A program made the position numbers and the translations under genes. Below the pieces are notes generated by a model, which had not been told where the DNA came from, made no database searches, and saw only the letters and a program-made list of their open reading frames with translations. This document shows positions 29,774 through 38,780 of a DNA stretch of 64,000 bases, piece after piece (the stretch's first letter is position 1; the number at the start of each line of letters is the position of its first letter). The stretch covers positions 2,418,001 through 2,482,000 of the forward strand of contig NZ_CP109467.1 of assembly GCF_036227325.1 (NCBI RefSeq), in the 5' to 3' direction. Source of the DNA: Streptomyces sp. NBC_01465. GTDB lineage: Bacteria; Actinomycetota; Actinomycetes; Streptomycetales; Streptomycetaceae.

Positions 29774-30607
29774 ATGGCCAACGTTTCCCGGCAGGCGGCA
29801 TGGGAGTTCTTCGGAGCGGAACTGAAGCGGTTGCGGGAGGCGGCGGACCTGACACAGGCGGAACTCGGGGTCCGGGTCTTCGTATCCGGCGGCTACATCG
29901 GCCAATTCGAACAGGCAATTCGGAAGCCGCAGTTGGACGTGGCACAGAGAATCGATGCGACGCTGCAAACCGACGGTATTTTCGAGCGGATGTGGCGCAA
30001 GCTGATCAATGACACCCGCTATGCGGAGTACTTCGCGCATGTCGTGGACCTGGAGCGGACAGCGACGAAGATCTGCGAGTTCGCGCCCACGGTCGTCCCC
30101 GGCCTGTTGCAGACGGCGGAGTACGCGCGGGCGGTCACGATCGCGGCCAACCCGTTCGTCACGGACGAGTACGTGGAGGAGAAGGTGTCAGCCCGCCTGG
30201 AGCGCGCGGTCATCCTCCAGGACGCTACAAGGCCCGAGTATTGGGCCGTACTGCACGAGTCGGCCCTCCGTATCGCTGTGGGCGGTCCGGCCGCGATGGC
30301 CCGGCAACTCGACCACATCACGGAGCTGATGCGGGACCGTACGGCGATGGTGATGGTGATCCCGTTCGCGGCGGGCGCACACGCGTCCATGCTCGGAGAC
30401 CTGCGACTCATGGAGTTCGAGGACGCACCGCCAACTGCCTATACAGAGACGTCGTTTTCGGGAACGCTGCTCGACGATCCGGCAGTGGTGAAGCGGGCCC
30501 ACCGCGCCTACGATCTGATCGGGGCCGTCGCACTGTCGCCGAAGGCGTCCCTGACCCTGATCGAATCGGCGGCGGAGGACTTCAGACGATGCACACGTAC
30601 GACCTGA
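29774..30607 (+). CDS. XRE-family regulator with DUF5753/Scr1 domain
   Basis: 277 aa from ATG 29774 (MANVSRQAAWEFFGAELKRLREAAD), with agggag upstream; the frame extends to 29684 without family support. HTH: LTQAELGVRVFVSGGYIGQFEQAIRKPQLDVAQRID. The C-terminal domain starting YAEYFAHVVDLERTATKICEFAPTVVPGLLQTAEYARAV is the DUF5753 effector domain of WhiJ/Scr1-like proteins, which act with small DUF397 partners in Streptomyces development and antibiotic regulation. Overlaps the DUF397 gene by 19 nt. Confidence 0.93.
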   Translation: MANVSRQAAWEFFGAELKRLREAADLTQAELGVRVFVSGGYIGQFEQAIRKPQLDVAQRIDATLQTDGIFERMWRKLINDTRYAEYFAHVVDLERTATKICEFAPTVVPGLLQTAEYARAVTIAANPFVTDEYVEEKVSARLERAVILQDATRPEYWAVLHESALRIAVGGPAAMARQLDHITELMRDRTAMVMVIPFAAGAHASMLGDLRLMEFEDAPPTAYTETSFSGTLLDDPAVVKRAHRAYDLIGAVALSPKASLTLIESAAEDFRRCTRTT

Positions 30608-30777
30608 GGAACGCCCGCTGGCGCAAGAGCACGCACAGCAACGGCGAGGGCGGCAACTGCGTCGAGGTCTCCGACGGCCACCCCTCCCTCGTCCCCGTCC
30701 GCGACAGCAAGCGCCCCGAGGGCCCCGCCCTCCTGATCCCCGCCGAGAGCTGGACGGCGTTCGTGGCCACGCTCTGA
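30589..30777 (+). CDS. DUF397 domain protein (partner of XRE regulator)
   Basis: 62 aa: DLRNARWRKSTHSNGEGGNCVEVSDGHPSLVPVRDSKRPEGPALLIPAESWTAFVATL is the complete DUF397 consensus (W-K-S-S-x-S-N-G..NCVEV..V.VRDSK). DUF397 proteins bind and inhibit, or tune, the paired XRE-DUF5753 regulator, resembling an antidote-type arrangement (Scr2/AbaAD). Start ATG 30589 lies inside the regulator gene. Confidence 0.95.
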   Translation: MHTYDLRNARWRKSTHSNGEGGNCVEVSDGHPSLVPVRDSKRPEGPALLIPAESWTAFVATL

Positions 30778-30782
30778 ACCGG

Positions 30783-31163
30783 TCAGGCGCGCGGAACCGG
30801 CGTGCCCTGGTGATAGAGCAGCCGCCAGTCCGAACTCCCCTGCTCCCTGCGCCAGATCGAACTCCGGCGGGCTCGCTCCTCCCCGAAGGCGGTCTCGTAC
30901 GTCAGGTGCACCAGCCCGGGCGCAAGCAGCACCCCAGCCATGCCGGAGACCTCGGCGCGGGGCCCGTCCTGCGCTGCGCCCCGCATCCCGGGAAGCGCGG
31001 CAAGCATCTCCTCGTACGTCCACCGCCGCCCCGAGGCACCAACCTCTACGAACTCGGGGTCCAGCAACTGCGCGGCGAGCGCACGCGAGGACCGCACACT
31101 GGGGTCCAAGAGCCGCAGCTCGCCCGCGATCGCCGCCGCCACTTGATCCGATGCGCTGGCCAC
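30783..31163 (-). CDS. NTF2-like (DUF4440) protein
   Basis: 126 aa from GTG at 31163, which shares a base with the preceding TAG (TAGTG). NTF2/SnoaL-like fold: ELRLLDPSVRSSRALAAQLLDPEFVEVGASGRRWTYEEMLAALPG... and WRREQGSSDWRLLYHQGTPVPRA, as in DUF4440 proteins, which range from enzymes to inert binding domains. The terminal position in the six-gene overlapping operon suggests a soluble partner, possibly an immunity or chaperone-like protein; this is inference only. Start alternatives do not exist within a few codons. Confidence 0.8.
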   Translation of the reverse strand: MASASDQVAAAIAGELRLLDPSVRSSRALAAQLLDPEFVEVGASGRRWTYEEMLAALPGMRGAAQDGPRAEVSGMAGVLLAPGLVHLTYETAFGEERARRSSIWRREQGSSDWRLLYHQGTPVPRA

Positions 31164-31804
31164 TACCGATAGCCCCCGCTCACGTTCCTGGCGATCCCCG
31201 CACCCTTGGCCTGCGCCATGCGCTCGCGCTGCCGCACGAGGGCCACGCGATCGTCGACGCTGAGCCGGTAGCGGACGCTCAGCAGCATGAAGCCGCTCCC
31301 ACCGGGCATTGCGATGACCCCTCCCAGGGGGAGGTCACCCGCGAACCACGCTCCGCGCTCCATCTCCGGATTCCAGCGGTTCCACTTCAACGGGTCGCGC
31401 GCCACCACCCCGCGCGTCCAGCCGTCCTGGCCATCGCCGGGCTTGAGCTGCACGGTGACGCCCGCGGGCTCCTTGGCGGTCTTGCGGGCCGACTCCCGGT
31501 ACTCCCACGGATAACTCCGCAGCACCTTGCGGACCTTGTGCAGGCGCCGCAGCGAGCCGTAGCTCGCCCCCACGAAGAAGAGCAGAACCAGAAACACCAA
31601 GACCCAGAGCGTGGCCAAGGGGTTCTCCTTCCGCCCATAGGTATCTTCGTGCTGCATTCCGGCCATCGCCAGCGATGCCACCGTGAGAACCGACCAGATG
31701 AGCAGCCGAATCCTCACTCTCCAACGGGCCCGCTCCCATCCTGCGCGGGTCTCCGCATGGTCGAAAGCGTGCTTGTCCAGCGGGACTTGAACTCCGTACG
31801 TCAC
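31163..31804 (-). CDS. Membrane protein, paralogue of the next gene upstream
   Basis: 213 aa from GTG 31804 (VTYGVQVPLDKHAFDHAETR), overlapping the upstream stop (GTGA). Two hydrophobic helices (LLIWSVLTVASLAMAGM and LATLWVLVFLVLLFFVGASYG) are followed by a cytoplasmic or extracellular domain with GAWFAGDLPLGGVIAMPGGSGFMLLSV. The same WFAGDxxxGGVIxxPG pattern occurs in the 197-aa neighbour, so the two are duplicates of one unknown fold. No database family recognised. Fifth gene of the six-gene operon. Confidence 0.8.
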   Translation of the reverse strand: MTYGVQVPLDKHAFDHAETRAGWERARWRVRIRLLIWSVLTVASLAMAGMQHEDTYGRKENPLATLWVLVFLVLLFFVGASYGSLRRLHKVRKVLRSYPWEYRESARKTAKEPAGVTVQLKPGDGQDGWTRGVVARDPLKWNRWNPEMERGAWFAGDLPLGGVIAMPGGSGFMLLSVRYRLSVDDRVALVRQRERMAQAKGAGIARNVSGGYR

Positions 31805-32394
31805 TTCCGTCCTCCCCTGAGTCCTGCCTGCTTCGCCGTCTCCCGCCTGGCTCTGCCCGCCGCTTCCCTGGCGGGGGCCAGTTCGTCCCACTCGCGAGGC
31901 TCTGCGAGGAGAAGCTCATCCGTGCCGGGCAGCAGAATGACGCCCCCGAAGAGATCGTCTCCCGCGAACCACGCCTCAGCACCCTCCGCCGGAATCTCCC
32001 GACGCTGCCCAAGTACCGCAGTCGCCGCCATCTCTGGCGAACGGTCAACGCCCTCCCGTCCGAGCAGCACAACCATCTTCCAGCCCTTGCTGCTGGTCAT
32101 GCGCTGCTGTCCGGCCATCGGCGACCTCGGTACCGACGGATAGGCGGCCAGCACCCGCTTGCACGTACCAAGCCAGATCAGTGACCGCGGAAGGATTTTG
32201 AACGTGTAGATGAGGCCGCAGATTCCCAGGAACGAGAGCGGGAACAAGAAGCCGCTGTGGAACAGCGGCGCCGGTACAACGAGCAGCAACGACACCAGCA
32301 CAATCGTGGCGAAGCGCCTGAATACGAGAGCGCGCGATCTTTTCAGAGCTCTCTGCACGTCCACGCCACTCACCACTGCCTCTCCATCGATCAT
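31801..32394 (-). CDS. Membrane protein of unknown function
   Basis: 197 aa. Two hydrophobic helices (FATIVLVSLLLVVPAPLFHSG and FLFPLSFLGICGLIYTFKIL), a basic patch, LAAYPSVPRS, then a domain with WFAGDDLFGGVILLPGTDELLLA that is repeated in the following gene. The RxLxxYP segment after the helices is shared by both (LAAYPSVPRS / LRSYPWEYRE). Overlaps its neighbours on both sides by 4 nt. Fourth gene of the operon. Confidence 0.8.
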   Translation of the reverse strand: MIDGEAVVSGVDVQRALKRSRALVFRRFATIVLVSLLLVVPAPLFHSGFLFPLSFLGICGLIYTFKILPRSLIWLGTCKRVLAAYPSVPRSPMAGQQRMTSSKGWKMVVLLGREGVDRSPEMAATAVLGQRREIPAEGAEAWFAGDDLFGGVILLPGTDELLLAEPREWDELAPAREAAGRARRETAKQAGLRGGRK

Positions 32395-33053
32395 CCGAAG
32401 TCGCTCCTCATGGAATCGGCCACGCCGCTCGTCGGCGATGGGACGGGGGCAGGGTCGCTGAACGTCACGGTGTGGGCGACACCGAGAAGCACCCGCAGAT
32501 AGTCGTCGGCCTGATCAACGGCTGCTGTCACCAGCTGAACCAGAACAATCTCCGACGATCCGGCGTCCGGAACCGCCACTGTCCCTTGCCAGACGTCGCC
32601 TTCAGCACGTTGCCGTCCCGGCGCCACCACGCGTCGCTTCGTCTCGGCCAACAGGCCGGTTCCACAGGGAAGTTCCACGGGCCGCACACCCTCGCCCGAA
32701 TCAGATGCCGCAGCCGACCTCACCATGTCGGCGAGCACAAGCTTCGGGTCAATTCCGGCCGAGGAGACGCTGGCGACGGTGAGGACGGACATCGCGTATC
32801 CGCCGGCCTCATCGGGATGCACGCCGATCGCACAGCCCTGCACCTTCTGCGCGTTCAGCAGCGTTACCGCGCCGGCGTAGAACTGGAGCGCCTGAGACGC
32901 TCGCTCGCGCACCCCGTCGGGCAGGCCCTGGACCTGCCGCATCATCGCCTCGACATGGTCGGTCGACGGCGCGAGATCCAGCTGCGCGTACCCGTGGGGG
33001 ATTCCGTACCAGAAGGAGGGACGCACCCCCGCCTCCGCGAGAGTTGTCACCAC
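32391..33053 (-). CDS. Unknown protein of the WXG100 operon
   Basis: 220 aa. Starts MVTTLAEAGVRPSFWYGIPHGYAQLDLAPSTDHVEAMMRQVQGLPDGVRERASQALQFYAGAVTLLNAQ. Alternating helices and strands with VLVQLVTAAVDQADDYLRVLLGVAHTVTFSDP near the end. No signal peptide or membrane helix. The end of the pattern (SDPAPV) and overall layout resemble short proteins found beside WXG100 genes in streptomycetes, but I cannot name a family. Overlaps the upstream gene by 7 nt. Confidence 0.75.
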   Translation of the reverse strand: MVTTLAEAGVRPSFWYGIPHGYAQLDLAPSTDHVEAMMRQVQGLPDGVRERASQALQFYAGAVTLLNAQKVQGCAIGVHPDEAGGYAMSVLTVASVSSAGIDPKLVLADMVRSAAASDSGEGVRPVELPCGTGLLAETKRRVVAPGRQRAEGDVWQGTVAVPDAGSSEIVLVQLVTAAVDQADDYLRVLLGVAHTVTFSDPAPVPSPTSGVADSMRSDFG

Positions 33054-34336
33054 GCCGACACCAGCCCTGCGATGTCGAAGAGGGTCGCAGCAGCCTTGGT
33101 CGTCTCCGCGCTGTTGTGTGCAGCACCCTGACCCGGAATCAGGTCGAGGCTTTCGCCGGAGGACACCAGGTTCGCTGACACATTCACACCGCTGACGCTG
33201 ACCTCAGCGACTCGTAGTGCCGCCTTTCTGCCACCTTCAGCAAATGCTTCTGCGCCTTCACGCGCATCAGAAGCGGCCTTTGTGGAGAATGCAGGCACAA
33301 TATCCTTCACGAATTTCGATGCGTGCGGCGCCGACTGGGCAAGCGTTTCCCCGCCTTCGCGAGCCACCCGCGCGGCATCGATGGCTTCGCTCCCTGCTTT
33401 ACCGAGAGCTCCAGCGCCTGGAACCATCCCGACCAGGTCACCCGCGAAAGACGCATAGGCGCTGAAGGTGTCCATGTTCCAGCCGGTCTTGTCGCCCCAC
33501 AGAGCATCTCTGAACTCCGGGTCGGTGAGGTTCTTCGTCATGGAAGCCGCACTCGCCACGACCGCGATCCCCGCGAACAGCGGCGCAAGCGGCGTCGGGA
33601 AGAGTGCCAGCATTCCTGCGATGGCGCCGATCGTGCCCGCGTGCTCGTACAGGAACTCGCCGACCGCCTTGATGCCGCCCCAGATGGCATCAACTGCCGT
33701 GCTCAGCCAGCCGGGTTCGCGCGGTGCGAGCTTGTCCGTCGCGTCGTCGAGCGCCCTGGCGACACCCTCCGCCTGGTCCGTATGCTGGATTTCCAGCGCC
33801 TCGGCCTTGCGGATGACGTCGTTGTACGCCGCATTCGCACTGTCCAGCGCCGTCGTAGCCTCGCCCAGGCTCTTCTCCGCCGCCCGCAGCCGTGCCGTCG
33901 CCGCGTCCGCCTCGTCCTGGGAGGGGAACGTCCGGCCCGCCAGCTTGAGGTCCGGGTGTTCCGCCGCCGCGTCGTGGCGCTGCTGCGCCGAACTCGCCGC
34001 CGCCTTCTTCTCGGCTGCCGCCTCGTCGTACTTCTTCGCCAGGTCCCGGTTGGACGTGAGGTCGCCGTCCCAGATCTTCAGTTGGGCCGACGCCTTCTCC
34101 AGGGAGCGGGCCGCGTTCTTGATGTACGTCGGCAACTCGCCGTCGATCGCCTCGCGGAACGCCGTCGCCGCGTCGCCCTCCCAGTAGCTGCTCTCACCGA
34201 TCAGCTTCTGCAGCTGGGTGTGGCAGTTGCGGAGCGCCGTGGCTGCCGAAGTGACCTTTGACCGGAGGGCGTTGACCTCGGTGGGGATGCCGGGTGCCGG
34301 GTTCCAGCCGAGGTCCGGATAGGGGTTCGCCGCCAT
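33047..34336 (-). CDS. Putative type VII secretion substrate (WXG/LXG-like N-terminus)
   Basis: 429 aa. N-terminal 100 residues form a long helical hairpin with YWEGDAATAFREAIDGELPTYIKNAARSLEKASAQL; the WEGDAA turn replaces the W-x-G of WXG100 proteins. Residues 100-210 are Ala/Glu/Lys-rich coiled coil. Around 230-275 is a hydrophobic Gly/Ala stretch (TIGAIAGMLALFPTPLAPLFAGIAVVASAASM), then a pore- or linker-like domain (DTFSAYASFAGDLVGMVPGAGALGKAGSEAIDAARVA). This is the plan of polymorphic-toxin-type T7SS proteins, but it stops without a recognisable C-terminal toxin. Its ATG overlaps the stop of the small WXG100 gene by one base. Confidence 0.85.
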   Translation of the reverse strand: MAANPYPDLGWNPAPGIPTEVNALRSKVTSAATALRNCHTQLQKLIGESSYWEGDAATAFREAIDGELPTYIKNAARSLEKASAQLKIWDGDLTSNRDLAKKYDEAAAEKKAAASSAQQRHDAAAEHPDLKLAGRTFPSQDEADAATARLRAAEKSLGEATTALDSANAAYNDVIRKAEALEIQHTDQAEGVARALDDATDKLAPREPGWLSTAVDAIWGGIKAVGEFLYEHAGTIGAIAGMLALFPTPLAPLFAGIAVVASAASMTKNLTDPEFRDALWGDKTGWNMDTFSAYASFAGDLVGMVPGAGALGKAGSEAIDAARVAREGGETLAQSAPHASKFVKDIVPAFSTKAASDAREGAEAFAEGGRKAALRVAEVSVSGVNVSANLVSSGESLDLIPGQGAAHNSAETTKAAATLFDIAGLVSAW

Positions 34337-34656
34337 CAGTTCGTGCCGCCCGACGTCGACTCCGCCGCCATCTTCTTGAACGCCTGCTCCAGCGCCTTCT
34401 CGACCTCTTCGTAGGCCTGCTTGTTCGTCTTCACGCCTGCGCCGACCGCGTCGATCATCTTCTTCGTCTGCTCGGACCCGTACTTCCAGCGCTCCTGGAA
34501 TCCGTCGCAGGCCTCGTCCAGGCGGGGTGTCCCGATCTGGTCGGCCCGGACGTGCCCGAGCGCCGTACGCGCCTCGTTCAGGTCCCGGATGCAGCCTTCC
34601 AGGGTCGTCAGGAACGAACCGAGCTGGTCGGTGTCCGTCGCAAAGTGATCCCCCAT
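34336..34656 (-). CDS. WXG100-like small protein
   Basis: 106 aa from ATG 34656 (MGDHFATDTDQLGSFLTTLEGCIRDLNEARTALGHVR), with GGAGG eight bases upstream. All-helical, about 100 residues: DEACDGFQERWKYGSEQTKKMIDAVGAGVKTNKQAYEEVEKALEQAFKKM. There is no canonical WxG, but the size, helical hairpin and FxxRWxYG turn fit the ESAT-6/CFP-10-like or DUF2580-like group. Heads the six-gene operon and is the probable partner of the 429-aa protein. Confidence 0.85.
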   Translation of the reverse strand: MGDHFATDTDQLGSFLTTLEGCIRDLNEARTALGHVRADQIGTPRLDEACDGFQERWKYGSEQTKKMIDAVGAGVKTNKQAYEEVEKALEQAFKKMAAESTSGGTN

Positions 34657-34771: not shown

Positions 34772-35458
34772 CTACACGCCGTGCGCCCCCGGCACCACCA
34801 AGCCCGATTCGTACGCAATGATCACCAGTTGCGCCCGGTCCCTTGCGCCCAGTTTGCCCATGATCCGGCTGACATGCGTCTTTGCCGTGAGAGGTGAGAG
34901 GCCCAGGCTCTCCGCGATCTCCGCATTGTTCAGACCCCTCCCCACCAGGCCCAACACCTGGCACTCACGTTCAGAGAGGCCGTCCGGGCCGCCCGTTGAC
35001 GGGGCTTCGCGCACCCTCAGGACGCGGGCGATCAGGCGTGACGTCGGGCCCGGGGAGAGCAGGGAGTCGCCCGCCGCCACCAAGCGGATCGCGGCCAGCA
35101 GGTCCGCCGGCTTCGTGTCCTTCACCAGGAAGCCCGACGCCCCCGCGCGCAGCGCCTCCACCACGTGCTCGTCCGTGTCGTACGTCGTGAGGACCAGGAC
35201 CTTCACCCCTGCCAGGTCCTCGTCCGCCGCGATCAGGCGCGTCGCCGTGATGCCGTCCATGTCCGGCATCCGGATGTCCATCACGACCAGGTCCGCGCGC
35301 GACGCACGGGCCAGCTCCACCGCCTCCCGGCCGTTCGCCGCCTGGGCGACCACCTCCATGCCGGGCGCCGAGTCCACCAGCATCGCGAACGCCGCCCGGA
35401 CCAGGGTCTGGTCGTCCGCCAGCAGGACGCGGATCACAGGGGTCTGGTTCTCCGTCAT
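34772..35458 (-). CDS. NarL/LuxR-type response regulator
   Basis: 228 aa from ATG 35458 (MTENQTPVIRVLLADDQTLVRAAF). Receiver with Asp61 (LVVMDIRMPDMDG) and Lys (FLVKDTKP), and LuxR HTH: LSERECQVLGLVGRGLNNAEIAESLGLSPLTAKTHVSRIMGKLGARDRAQLV. ATGA overlap with the kinase gene. Partner of that kinase; the MMPL exporter upstream in the same operon is the likely output. Confidence 0.95.
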   Translation of the reverse strand: MTENQTPVIRVLLADDQTLVRAAFAMLVDSAPGMEVVAQAANGREAVELARASRADLVVMDIRMPDMDGITATRLIAADEDLAGVKVLVLTTYDTDEHVVEALRAGASGFLVKDTKPADLLAAIRLVAAGDSLLSPGPTSRLIARVLRVREAPSTGGPDGLSERECQVLGLVGRGLNNAEIAESLGLSPLTAKTHVSRIMGKLGARDRAQLVIIAYESGLVVPGAHGV

Positions 35459-36678
35459 TCGGGCAACCGCCTTTCGTTCAGCGGGAGTTCCGCCCTCACC
35501 TCGAAGCCGCCGTCCTGTCGCGGCCCCGCCGTCAACAGCCCGCCCACACTCCGCGCCCGCTCCCGCATCCCGATGATTCCGTACCCCGATCCCGATGTAC
35601 CGCCCGGCGCCTTCCCGTCGTCCACGATCCTCACCTGCAGCGTCTCCCCCTCCCCGTACACCGAGACCCGGACGCGCGCGCCCGCGCCCGCATGGCGCAC
35701 CGCGTTCGTCAGGGACTCCTGGACGATGCGGTACGCCGCCGCCTCCGTCGCCGGCGCCATCGCCAACCCCTCGCTCCGCAGGTCGAGTTCGGCCGACGAC
35801 GCCTTCACCAGGCCCGGGAGCGCCGCCAGGTCGGGGAGCGGCTCCGAGACTCCCCCGGCGCCGTCCGCCCGCAGCACCTCCAGCGTCGTACGCAGCTCGC
35901 CCCGCGCCGTACGGCACGTCTCCGCGATCCCGTCCAGTGCCTTCGCAATCGTCGCCCGGTCCAGGCGGTCCGGGTCCACGGTGAGGATGTGCGACGCCAC
36001 CGACGTCTGCACGCCGATCAGCGTGATCGAGTGGGCCAGGAGGTCGTGCAGGTCGCGGGCGATGCGCATCCGTTCGTCCGTCACCCGCTGCTCCGCCTCC
36101 TTCTCGGCCCGGGCCTTGAGCGAGGCCACGTACTGGCGGTAGACCCGGACGTCCACCCCGCAGAACAGCACGGCGATGTTCCAGCCCGAAGTCCTCAGCA
36201 GCTCAATGCCGTTGTGGCGGTTGAGGGTCGTCACCGTCGCGATCATGATGGTGAGGGCCATGGCGCCGAAGGCCAGCGTCCGCAGCGGCCTGCCCGTCGA
36301 CGCCACCGTGTAGAGCACGATCATCGACATCGGGATCGCCGCGCTGTGCGCGTTGTCGAGCGCGTGGTACGGAAAGACGAAGGCCACCATGGCGAGGAAC
36401 GCCCGCACCGGGTTCCGGCGCCGGAACGCCACCGTCAGCACGGCGCCGAGCAGCAGCGCCCAGCCGAGCGCGTCCGGGCGCAGCGCCGGATCGGAATACA
36501 GCCCGAGGAGCAGCGACAGCACACCGACGCCCACCGCGAGGAGGGCGTCGTTGCGCTGCCGGTGCGGCGCGTCCATCGGGTCGCGGTTGACGACCACGAG
36601 GATGCGCTCGCTCAGCGACGGAGACGGCGGAGGTGAGAGTGCGGGCACGCCCACCATCTTCCGGTACGGGAACCTCAA
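35455..36678 (-). CDS. Sensor histidine kinase, HisKA_3 type
   Basis: 407 aa from TTG 36678, whose codon overlaps the MMPL stop (TTGA); ATG 36657 (MVGVPALSPP) is an alternative. Four or five membrane helices in the first 190 residues (ALLAVGVGVLSLLLGLYS; ALGWALLLGAVLTVAF). Phospho-acceptor His in RIARDLHDLLAHSITLIGVQ; N box QESLTNAVRHAGAGA; G boxes VDDGKAPGG and GSGYGIIGMRERA. Closely resembles the DesK-like kinases next to MMPL or ABC exporters. Signal unknown. Confidence 0.93.
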   Translation of the reverse strand: MRFPYRKMVGVPALSPPPSPSLSERILVVVNRDPMDAPHRQRNDALLAVGVGVLSLLLGLYSDPALRPDALGWALLLGAVLTVAFRRRNPVRAFLAMVAFVFPYHALDNAHSAAIPMSMIVLYTVASTGRPLRTLAFGAMALTIMIATVTTLNRHNGIELLRTSGWNIAVLFCGVDVRVYRQYVASLKARAEKEAEQRVTDERMRIARDLHDLLAHSITLIGVQTSVASHILTVDPDRLDRATIAKALDGIAETCRTARGELRTTLEVLRADGAGGVSEPLPDLAALPGLVKASSAELDLRSEGLAMAPATEAAAYRIVQESLTNAVRHAGAGARVRVSVYGEGETLQVRIVDDGKAPGGTSGSGYGIIGMRERARSVGGLLTAGPRQDGGFEVRAELPLNERRLPE

Positions 36679-38780
36679 CGGGAGCCGATCAGCTCATGCT
36701 CGGGTGACGCGGCGGGCGGTTCGGCCGGCGTACGGCTCAGCGCGCCCGGCCACCACACCTTGCGGCCGAGGGCCACGCTGGCCGACGTCACCAGGTACGT
36801 ACGGACCAGGAAGGTGTCCAGGAGCACTCCGACCGCGATCACGAACCCCAGTTCGGCCAGCATCGCGAGCGGCATGTTGATCAGGACCGCGAACGTCGCC
36901 GCCAGGACCAGACCCGCCGAGGCGATGACACCGCCCGTCGTACGGAGCGCGGTGAGCGCGGCCGCCGCCGGCTCGGCGCCCGACTGGGACTCCTCGCGCA
37001 TCCGGTGCATCAGGAAGATGCCGTAGTCGACGCCGAGCGCCACCAGGAAGACGAAGGAGAGGAGGGGCAGGCCGGGGTCGGTGCCCTCGAAGCCGAAGAG
37101 CGGTTCGAAGACCAGGCCCGCGATGCCGAGCGACGCGCCCCAGACCGCGACCACCGCCGCGATCAGCATCAGCGGGGCGACGAGGCTGCGCAGCAGCACG
37201 ATCAGGATCAGAAGGACGGAGACCAGCACCAGCGGCACGATGACCTTCAAGTCCCTTGCGCTGGTGGCCTCCAGGTCCATCTGCTGGGCGCTCGGCCCGC
37301 CGACGTACGCACCGAGCGAACCGTCGAGGCCCGACCGCAGCGCGTGGATGGTCGCCTGCTCGCCCGCCGACTCCGGCTTGGACGTGGCGATCACCGAGAT
37401 CTCCGTCCAACCGCTGCCGCTGCGGCCCTGGGTCACGGAGGCGACGCCCTCGGTCGTACGGGCCTTCGCGACCGCCTCCGTCGCCTTGTCGGTGGGGGCG
37501 AGCACCGTGATCGGCTGGGTGGAGCGCTCGGGGAAGGCGGCGGTGAGGGTCTTCGCCGCGGTGATCGACTCGGGTTTGGTGGTGAAGGAGTCCTCCTGCT
37601 TGAGGTCGCCGGGGAGGCTGAACGCGCCGAGCGCCAGGGCCCCGAGGACCACCGCGCCGGTGAGCAGGACCGCGATCGGGCGGCGGCCCGCGGAGGCGCC
37701 CATCGCGGAGAAGAGCGAACGGCCCTGCTTGGGCTCGCTTCCGTACGCGGGGACGAGCGGCCAGAACACCCTGCGGCCGAGGAGGACGAGGATCGCGGGC
37801 AGCAGCGTCATCATCGCGAGCAGCGCGCAGAGCACGCCGACGGCGGCGATCGGGCCCATGCCGCGGCTGGAGTTGAGGTCGGCGGCCATCAGGCAGAGGA
37901 GTCCGGCCGCGACCGTGCCGGACGAGGCGAGGATGGCGGGGCCGCTGCCTCGGAGGGCGGCGGCCATGGCGTCGTACGGGCGGGCGATGCGGCGGAGTTC
38001 CTCGCGGTAGCGGGCGACGAGGAGGAGGGCGTAGTCGGTGCCCGCGCCGAAGACGAGGATGGTCATCACGCCCTGGCTCTGGCCGGTGACGGTGATGTCG
38101 AAGCCGCGGTTGAGGCCGTAGACGGTGGCCATGGCGAGCGCGTCGGCGACGCCCGCGCAGACGAGGGGGACGAGCCAGAGCATCGGGCTGCGGTAGATGA
38201 TGATCAGCAGGATCGCGACGACGGCGACGGTGGTGTAGAGCAGCGGTCCGTCGAGGGAGGAGAAGACCTCCTGCGCGTCGACGTTCATCGCGCCGGGCCC
38301 GCCCACTTCGGCGCTCAACCCGCCGCTGCCGTCGGCGACTTGGCGTACCTCGGTGACGAACGTCTTCTTGAGGTCGTCGTCCTGCCCCGGCTCGGTGGTG
38401 GAGACCGGGTACATGAGGGTCGCGCCGTCCTTGGACGGTACGGCGTGGGGGGTGGAGGTGAGGCGGTGGGCGCCGGCGATCTGGTCGATCTGGTGGGCCG
38501 CGGTGGTGCGGTCGGCGGCGGTGAGGCCGCCGTCGCGGTGGTAGACGAGGACGAGGTCGGTGGACTCGCCGCCGGGGAGCCGGTCCTGGATCTTGGCGGC
38601 CTGGGTGGAGTCGGCGCCCGCGGGGAGGTAGTCGACGGCGCGGTTCTGCTGTACGTCGGCGAGCTTGCCCGCGAGGGGGCCTGCGACGGCTATGACGGCG
38701 ATCCAGAACGCGAGCATGCTCCAGGGGAGCCAGCGGCGTGGTCGGCGTACGGGTGTCGGTGTCTGCTGTGCGGCCCTCAT
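36675..38780 (-). CDS. MMPL family RND-type transporter
   Basis: 701 aa, single-gene MMPL exporter with 11-12 membrane helices in two halves. First half: WLPWSMLAFWIAVIAVAGPLAG, a large outer loop, then VVAILLIIIYRSPMLWLVPLVCAGVADALAMATVYGLNR and FGAGTDYALLLVARYREELRR; second half repeats the pattern with FLVALGVDYGIFLMHRMREES, each with the Asp-Tyr pair of proton-coupled RND pumps. Actinobacterial MMPL proteins export lipids, pigments or drugs; the substrate here is unknown. Its stop overlaps the kinase gene start, so exporter, kinase and regulator form one transcript. Confidence 0.94.
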   Translation of the reverse strand: MRAAQQTPTPVRRPRRWLPWSMLAFWIAVIAVAGPLAGKLADVQQNRAVDYLPAGADSTQAAKIQDRLPGGESTDLVLVYHRDGGLTAADRTTAAHQIDQIAGAHRLTSTPHAVPSKDGATLMYPVSTTEPGQDDDLKKTFVTEVRQVADGSGGLSAEVGGPGAMNVDAQEVFSSLDGPLLYTTVAVVAILLIIIYRSPMLWLVPLVCAGVADALAMATVYGLNRGFDITVTGQSQGVMTILVFGAGTDYALLLVARYREELRRIARPYDAMAAALRGSGPAILASSGTVAAGLLCLMAADLNSSRGMGPIAAVGVLCALLAMMTLLPAILVLLGRRVFWPLVPAYGSEPKQGRSLFSAMGASAGRRPIAVLLTGAVVLGALALGAFSLPGDLKQEDSFTTKPESITAAKTLTAAFPERSTQPITVLAPTDKATEAVAKARTTEGVASVTQGRSGSGWTEISVIATSKPESAGEQATIHALRSGLDGSLGAYVGGPSAQQMDLEATSARDLKVIVPLVLVSVLLILIVLLRSLVAPLMLIAAVVAVWGASLGIAGLVFEPLFGFEGTDPGLPLLSFVFLVALGVDYGIFLMHRMREESQSGAEPAAAALTALRTTGGVIASAGLVLAATFAVLINMPLAMLAELGFVIAVGVLLDTFLVRTYLVTSASVALGRKVWWPGALSRTPAEPPAASPEHELIGSR

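Follow-up and report, generated by a model that had tools for sequence, protein, structure and literature searches.

The window analyzed here is a 64,000-nucleotide stretch of DNA, positions 2418001-2482000 of a 9.14 Mb single-contig Streptomyces genome, and it contains six open reading frames in an overlapping row on the minus strand. In gene order they encode a 106-amino-acid (106-aa) small helical protein (34336-34656), a 429-aa LXG-like protein with a hydrophobic hairpin (33047-34336), a 220-aa protein with a predicted Mog1/PsbP-like fold (32391-33053), two-transmembrane (TM) proteins of 197 aa (31801-32394) and 213 aa (31163-31804), and a 126-aa DUF4440/NTF2-like protein (30783-31163). 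The original prediction, made from the letters alone, had described a tightly overlapping operon of six genes acting as one machine or effector-partner set, with the head of a type VII secretion system (T7SS) effector locus. All six reading frames were recovered where it had placed them, with overlaps of 1, 7, 4, 4 and 1 bp from the 106-aa to the 126-aa gene, and the tight arrangement is therefore real. For the 220-, 213- and 126-aa genes a GTG start is inferred, with a 242-aa alternative for the 213-aa gene. A codon-usage gene caller missed the 220-, 197- and 126-aa genes and shortened the 213-aa gene, yet homologues of all six were found elsewhere.

We determined which of these genes travel together in a set of 81 Streptomyces genomes, comprising the window's own genome and 80 others. 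The 429, 106 and 220 types are present in 28, 27 and 25 of them, respectively, and the 213, 197 and 126 queries find matches in 15, 12 and 53. Linkage was scored as a position ≤3 kb from a 429 match on the same strand, with the window copy excluded and with 11 second stretches of one gene (429) and 6 short or second-stretch rows (126) left out. By this measure 44 of 48 matches of the 106 type and 40 of 44 of the 220 type are linked to a 429 match; the corresponding counts are 8/17 for the 197 query, 11/28 for the 213 query (15/28 on either strand) and 0/63 for the 126 query. A scan of GTDB genomes with a 220 profile gave 48 loci, of which 46 are named Streptomyces, one is a Streptomycetaceae bacterium and one an 'Actinobacteria bacterium'. 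These loci are not independent, since some genomes or groups of near-identical strains contribute several of them and there is some overlap with the 81 genomes, and the 220 gene is present in all of them by construction. All four of the 106, 429, 220 and 197-type genes are held by 44/48 loci, and a 197-type gene lies near the 220 gene in 47/48. The 126-aa protein belongs to DUF4440 (PF14534, E 3.3e-11), and a DUF4440 gene was found in 0/48 loci.

Conserved synteny, which had been proposed as a check on the locus, is thus present for four genes, and it is a stronger test than unbroken overlaps. Judged by gene neighborhoods, the conserved unit is 106-429-220-197 and not all six genes; the second membrane paralogue, of 213 aa, is optional. 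Separate occurrence of the genes in other genomes, named beforehand as counterevidence, was seen for the 126 type and in part for the 213 and 197 types, but not for the 106, 429 and 220 types. The 126-aa gene adjoins the conserved cassette from outside, and it is a poor candidate for an antitoxin because it is a common DUF4440 gene with relatives sited elsewhere. The original prediction had accordingly identified the kind of locus correctly but misjudged how far it extends. The same genome carries four further LXG-like genes, with 62%, 32%, 34% and 28% identity to the 429-aa protein, making five related loci; each of the four has its own small partner and 220-type neighbor, and one of these paralogue loci holds a mycosin-like subtilase that scores below the mycosin cut-off.

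The first two genes have the features of a secretion substrate and its partner, and the linkage of their relatives bears out the pairing that had been proposed. The 106-aa protein is WXG100/EspC-like, with a WxxG turn, a YxxxE motif and a presumed role resembling that of Lap and PE proteins. Its match to WXG100 falls below the Pfam cut-off (E 0.027), as does that of the 429-aa protein (E 3.6e-4). The window's 429-aa protein itself has no PF21725 match, and its assignment to that family comes from its relatives. In an alignment of 53 sequences (A2; the window protein plus 52 of 120 listed 429 homologues), PF21725 (T7SS_signal) was matched in 46 and WXG100 in 44 (E ≤ 0.001), and 3/3 own-genome LXG-like paralogues scanned, of the four, exceed the PF21725 cut-off. 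Many of the 429 relatives listed carry the NCBI name 'putative T7SS-secreted protein'.

Both halves of a known export signal are kept across adjacent pairs. In a set of 38 pairs that includes the window and from which pairs repeating one gene were removed, the LXG-like protein has W-x-G in 38/38; in the window this is the W52-E53-G54 turn (34175-34183), whose W52 and G54 are kept in 43/43 cassettes. Aligned columns of the small partner hold Y plus D/E in 33/38 pairs and Y/F plus D/E in 36/38. The window's version, YEEVE at residues 82-86 (34399-34413), is a candidate Y-x-x-x-D/E export motif. The aligned motif is missing from two pairs: in L017 the reading frame diverges past the W, and L022 has YxxxN. 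When the last 45 residues of the small partner were shuffled in 1000 runs, the motif count averaged 7.65 and never exceeded 15, against 34 observed. As both motifs are retained across pairs, we ascribe to 106/429 the two-part T7SS signal, W-x-G plus Y-x-x-x-D/E, that is set out in a passage of PMC9600955. The substrate head that had been read from this locus stands on the linked pair and its motif signature, and we hold with high confidence that the locus is a T7SS (ESX) substrate cassette.

The nearest counterpart of this pair in the T7SSb of Bacillota is LXG with Lap1/Lap2, where a small helical FxxxD partner is likewise encoded beside a large substrate whose N-terminus is helical, and where the export signal is thought to span the complex (PMC9600955). 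The window cassette differs in its Actinomycete ESX setting, its single small partner, the near-constant length of the close substrate family, the additional 220-aa protein and the lack of any LXG family match at E ≤ 1 when the 429-aa protein was scanned against Pfam.

No ESX core gene lies near the window cassette, as had been noted; the only EccD match of this genome is ~3.9 Mb away (contig position 6372391), where it adjoins EccC over cut-off. EccD is over cut-off in 75/81 genomes, and 6/45 cassettes are in genomes without an EccD match. Some relatives are closer to the machine. Either eccC or eccD is present in 8/48 related loci within the ~12 kb fetched, and 10/39 cassettes, in six genomes, lie ≤40 kb from EccD against 0.53 expected from uniform placement, the 40-kb distance having been picked after the data were seen. 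One contig (G008:C301) has, in sequence, eccB, two WXG100 genes, mycosin, a paralogous cassette, a relative of the window cassette, eccC and eccD; the six ESX core genes are all over model cut-offs, and the LXG-like protein of the window-cassette relative is 40% identical. According to part of PMC7456083, the S. aureus TspA gene likewise lies a long way from its secretion locus, and distance from the machine is therefore no objection. Downstream of this genome's eccC (L060 1603-5975) are two genes: one of 128 aa that has no Pfam match, and one of 1314 aa that combines WXG100_2 at its head with the papain-fold toxin domain Gln_amidase and is likely to encode a T7SS polymorphic toxin.

Conservation within the 429-aa protein was scored in 30-residue bins over 43 cassettes including the window, leaving out loci that lack any of the four genes or have a stop in the matched stretch. 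The best conserved bin, 241-270 (0.84), corresponds to a hydrophobic, Gly-rich hairpin at about residues 232-263 (33548-33643), and bins after residue 300 score 0.35-0.65. G234, G237, G241, P252, G303 and G307 are invariant in 43/43, and hence so is a GxxxG motif, G237xxxG241. A hydrophobic segment occurs in 80/80 LXG-like relatives, which leaves no variation on which to test its correlation with the 220 gene. Pfam and NCBIfam scans of the six window proteins found no toxin domain, in agreement with the original prediction. Nor was a variable C-terminal toxin tip seen in the close 429 family: the best 120 of 274 relatives scored are 400-431 aa long (median 427), from a search that admits 0.55-1.75x the query length. 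The C-termini of distant relatives do differ. Two Rhs/YD-repeat proteins, of 1528 aa (L091 921-5507) and 1509 aa (L092 7229-11758), have the same N-terminal type as the 429-aa protein, which makes the latter look like a delivery head in a short form without a recognized tip.

An AlphaFold2 model of the 220-aa protein, built from 63 sequences (alignment A1; 62 of 85 listed homologues together with the window protein), has a predicted local distance difference test score (pLDDT) of 85.8 and a predicted template modeling score (pTM) of 0.81. It is confident over roughly residues 10-200, and the tail from residue 207 has low confidence and is predicted to be disordered. Its VIA-align matches include 3hlz (12.7), 3lyd (12.0), LpqN (11.5), EagT6-Tse6 (11.0), Tsi3 (11.0), PsbP (10.6) and SciW-Rhs1 (10.3). 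The model thus points to a Mog1/PsbP-like fold, with no one user of the fold singled out. At E ≤ 1 its sequence matched none of the Pfam and NCBIfam families, DUF1795 included, and searching the sequences of solved structures with the 220 and 429 profiles returned nothing credible (best E 1.7 and 0.011). A hydropathy scan found no hydrophobic segment, and the protein is probably cytosolic.

Among users of this fold, the Eag chaperones of type VI secretion systems (T6SS) fit best, because they are encoded beside their substrates and bind GxxxG-type TM helices in the cytoplasm, as described in a section of PMC7773334. The window cassette resembles Eag with Tse6 or Rhs1 in predicted fold and in placing the gene beside a substrate with a hydrophobic GxxxG segment; it differs in its Gram-positive T7SS setting, its C-terminal FG tail and the absence of a Pfam or NCBIfam sequence match. 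PsbP/MOG1 genes beside T6SS toxins have been noted as possible adaptors in part of PMC3482391. On the strength of the model and its structural matches we lean toward a role for the 220-aa protein as an Eag-like chaperone of the hairpin. The mycobacterial T7SSa has its own cassettes combining a partner pair with a globular protein, PE-PPE-EspG, and the chaperone role of EspG is described in an excerpt of PMC11217815. Here, in contrast, the globular protein is modeled as Mog1/PsbP-like. The 50 structural matches listed for it do not include EspG; a resemblance to the EspG fold may still exist. The EspG family PF14011 has no match in the 220-aa protein and is over cut-off in 0/81 genomes (one weak match lies below), in a scan that had no positive control, as none of 14 control genomes matched either; EspG identity by sequence was rejected on these results.

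The 220-aa protein ends in R-S-D-F-G (32394-32408), and its F-G ending recurs in 85/85 listed homologues, its own included. The ending is found in 47/48 loci, mostly as R-S/N-D/P-F-G, the exception (L140) being a split 220 frame. We considered whether the tail is a by-product of the ATGA start-stop overlap and rejected this, because 16/47 tails are without such an overlap and the glycine codons vary (36 GGA, 11 others). Of 366 proteins in 20 evenly spaced stretches of this genome, two have this ending, one being a 220-type paralogue. In the fetched loci, with 1255 proteins in all, the tail is carried by 48/64 of the 220 type, 3/94 of the 106 type, 1/84 of the 429 type, 0/88 of the 197 type and 16/925 others; ten of the 20 tailed non-220 proteins were scanned, and seven are over cut-off for WXG100, WXG100_2, EspC or T7SS_signal. 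Genome-wide scans of 26 genomes used narrow codon patterns at the DNA level, and only the genes behind their matches are informative. The first pattern was rarer than its reversed control (10 matches versus 40). Five of its matches end in a stop, three of these in reading frames of at least 60 aa, and 3/3 are T7SS-type (two WXG100_2 proteins and one 220-type paralogue). The second gave 19 matches versus 8 for the control; nine of the 19 were judged real genes, seven of them T7SS-type and two not (L177, L181), where the seven include L174 by tail resemblance alone, three from this genome and three shared with the first pattern. At one paralogue locus (L007 10644-10931) it is the small partner that ends in DFG, and the 220-type neighbor lacks this ending. 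The tail has a parallel in the C-terminus of mycobacterial EsxB, and from its distribution in sequences we regard it as a candidate docking tag. A wider proposal for Streptomyces ESX systems, in which a family of Mog1/PsbP-fold chaperones, as T7SS equivalents of the T6SS Eag proteins, would cover the membrane hairpins of LXG-like substrates and dock via an R-x-x-F-G tag that WXG100-type secreted proteins also carry, is put forward tentatively.

The 197- and 213-aa proteins are homologous, with two hydrophobic segments each, so that the proposed paralogy held; their joint fixed membership did not, the 213-aa gene being optional. A tree of 83 membrane proteins (rows of <120 aa or with a stop left out) splits 54 (m1) versus 29 (m2) with support of 100/98. 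The window's 197-aa protein falls on the m1 side with most copies that follow the 220 gene, and the 213-aa protein on the m2 side with most second or opposite-strand copies; the exceptions are the second copies of L112, L126 and L127 in m1 and the 220-following copies of L087 and L088 in m2. A second membrane-type gene is found in 19/48 loci, 12 with at least two 197-type genes on that strand and nine with one on the opposite strand, where that of L141 belongs to a second cassette. Two near-identical loci of related strains, L113 and L140, have the 220 gene and four membrane genes without 106/429, and one genome (G061) has a membrane gene and no 106, 429 or 220 match. The membrane proteins vary most, with a mean pairwise identity of 37% versus 51-61% for the others, and are the least conserved in 877/903 pairs. 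In three genomes (L079, L081, L085) an m1-type gene recurs between genes for a 317-324-aa protein, which by eye is secreted with a C-terminal TM segment, and a 183-aa protein; this trio is uncharacterized.

These properties make the 197-aa protein a candidate immunity protein. Strings of immunity genes reported for S. aureus (PMC9484751) resemble such membrane-gene sets. Membrane-acting T7SSb substrates offer further parallels: a passage of PMC7456083 describes TspA as depolarizing membranes, being neutralized by the membrane protein TsaI and having a membrane immunity gene cluster downstream, and one of PMC10434224 reports that a C-terminal glycine zipper of TelE, of the TelE-TipE pair, is needed for membrane damage. 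The window cassette differs in that toxicity is here only proposed and DUF443 had no match at E ≤ 1 in the 197- and 213-aa proteins (Pfam); TelE and TspA are offered as parallels and not as kin. Stray membrane relatives with settled contexts lacking an LXG-like gene weigh against an immunity function. A toxin with membrane immunity is a reasonable guess, to which we give somewhat less than even odds.

We consider the best explanation, at a probability of roughly 55%, to be an ESX substrate cassette with an Eag-like chaperone. The 429-aa protein would pair through its helical N-terminal part with the 106-aa protein, forming a bundle whose W-x-G plus Y-x-x-x-E signal is read by EccC (step 1). 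The 220-aa protein would bind the GxxxG hairpin in the cytosol and, in the manner of Eag, keep it soluble and off the producer's membrane, with its R-x-x-F-G tail perhaps helping to recruit the complex to the machine (step 2). Export of the pair would fall to the ESX machine, whose genes lie elsewhere in the genome (step 3), after which the hairpin would insert in a target membrane, either acting as a depolarizing toxin or conveying the C-terminal part across (step 4), and the 197- and 213-aa membrane proteins would protect the producer (step 5). The gene set, its conservation, both motifs and the ESX-gene linkage in relatives are read directly from sequence; as biochemical events we infer the five steps, of which 4 and 5 are the weakest.

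Two other readings are improbable, though worth weighing. In one, the 220-aa protein would be an immunity protein or extracellular component, like Tsi3 or LpqN, both of which are among its structural matches, and the membrane proteins would be accessory export or anchoring factors. The lack of a hydrophobic segment in the 220-aa protein argues against this, as do the F-G tail kept by all listed homologues and its higher conservation than the membrane protein (51% versus 37%); immunity proteins usually vary. In the other, the cassette would serve the producer's development and the 429-aa protein would be an exported structural or signaling protein and no toxin, a reading with which the near-constant length of the close family and the blank toxin scans agree, and a developmental role for Streptomyces ESX is suggested in part of PMC8401907. 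Conflict is a better fit to the patchy spread of the 429 type, the several divergent paralogues in this genome, the multiple and stray membrane genes, the different C-termini of distant relatives and the Rhs proteins with the same head. Finally, a six-gene machine with the 126-aa protein as antitoxin, for which the unbroken overlaps speak, is ruled out to near certainty by synteny and by the 126 type's presence in 53 genomes versus 28 for the 429 type.

To our knowledge, it is an open question how membrane-active substrates are recognized and kept soluble by T7SS machines, and Streptomyces ESX substrates are little known. If the chaperone reading is correct, two different secretion machines have arrived at one fold as the answer to a shared problem. 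The F-G tail offers an easy marker by which T7SS proteins of Streptomyces can be sought. The earlier description of an undescribed system was too strong, as many 429 relatives already bear an NCBI T7SS name; that name and PF21725 cover a single protein, and neither cassette, chaperone nor tail. It is the combination with a Mog1/PsbP-fold protein, its conserved C-terminal tail included, that seems undescribed. In the open-licence literature, no paper was found for PF21725 by name, and the matches listed held no report of a Mog1/PsbP-fold protein in a T7SS.

Other features of the region were surveyed. A defence system was rejected, PADLOC having returned a weak coiled-coil DndD match alone (E 5e-4). 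A promoter scan found none, and a terminator scan found one site versus 1.9 expected. Immediately upstream of the cassette and on its strand are genes for a LuxR-type response regulator, a histidine kinase and an MMPL transporter (34772-38780, minus strand), with a gap of 115 bp before the small-partner gene; no terminator-like site was found in this gap, so that co-transcription with the cassette is possible. On the other side and convergent with the cassette, 29774-30777 (plus strand) encodes an XRE-type regulator with DUF5753 followed by a 62-aa DUF397 protein (PF04149, E 2e-22), a common pair in Streptomyces.

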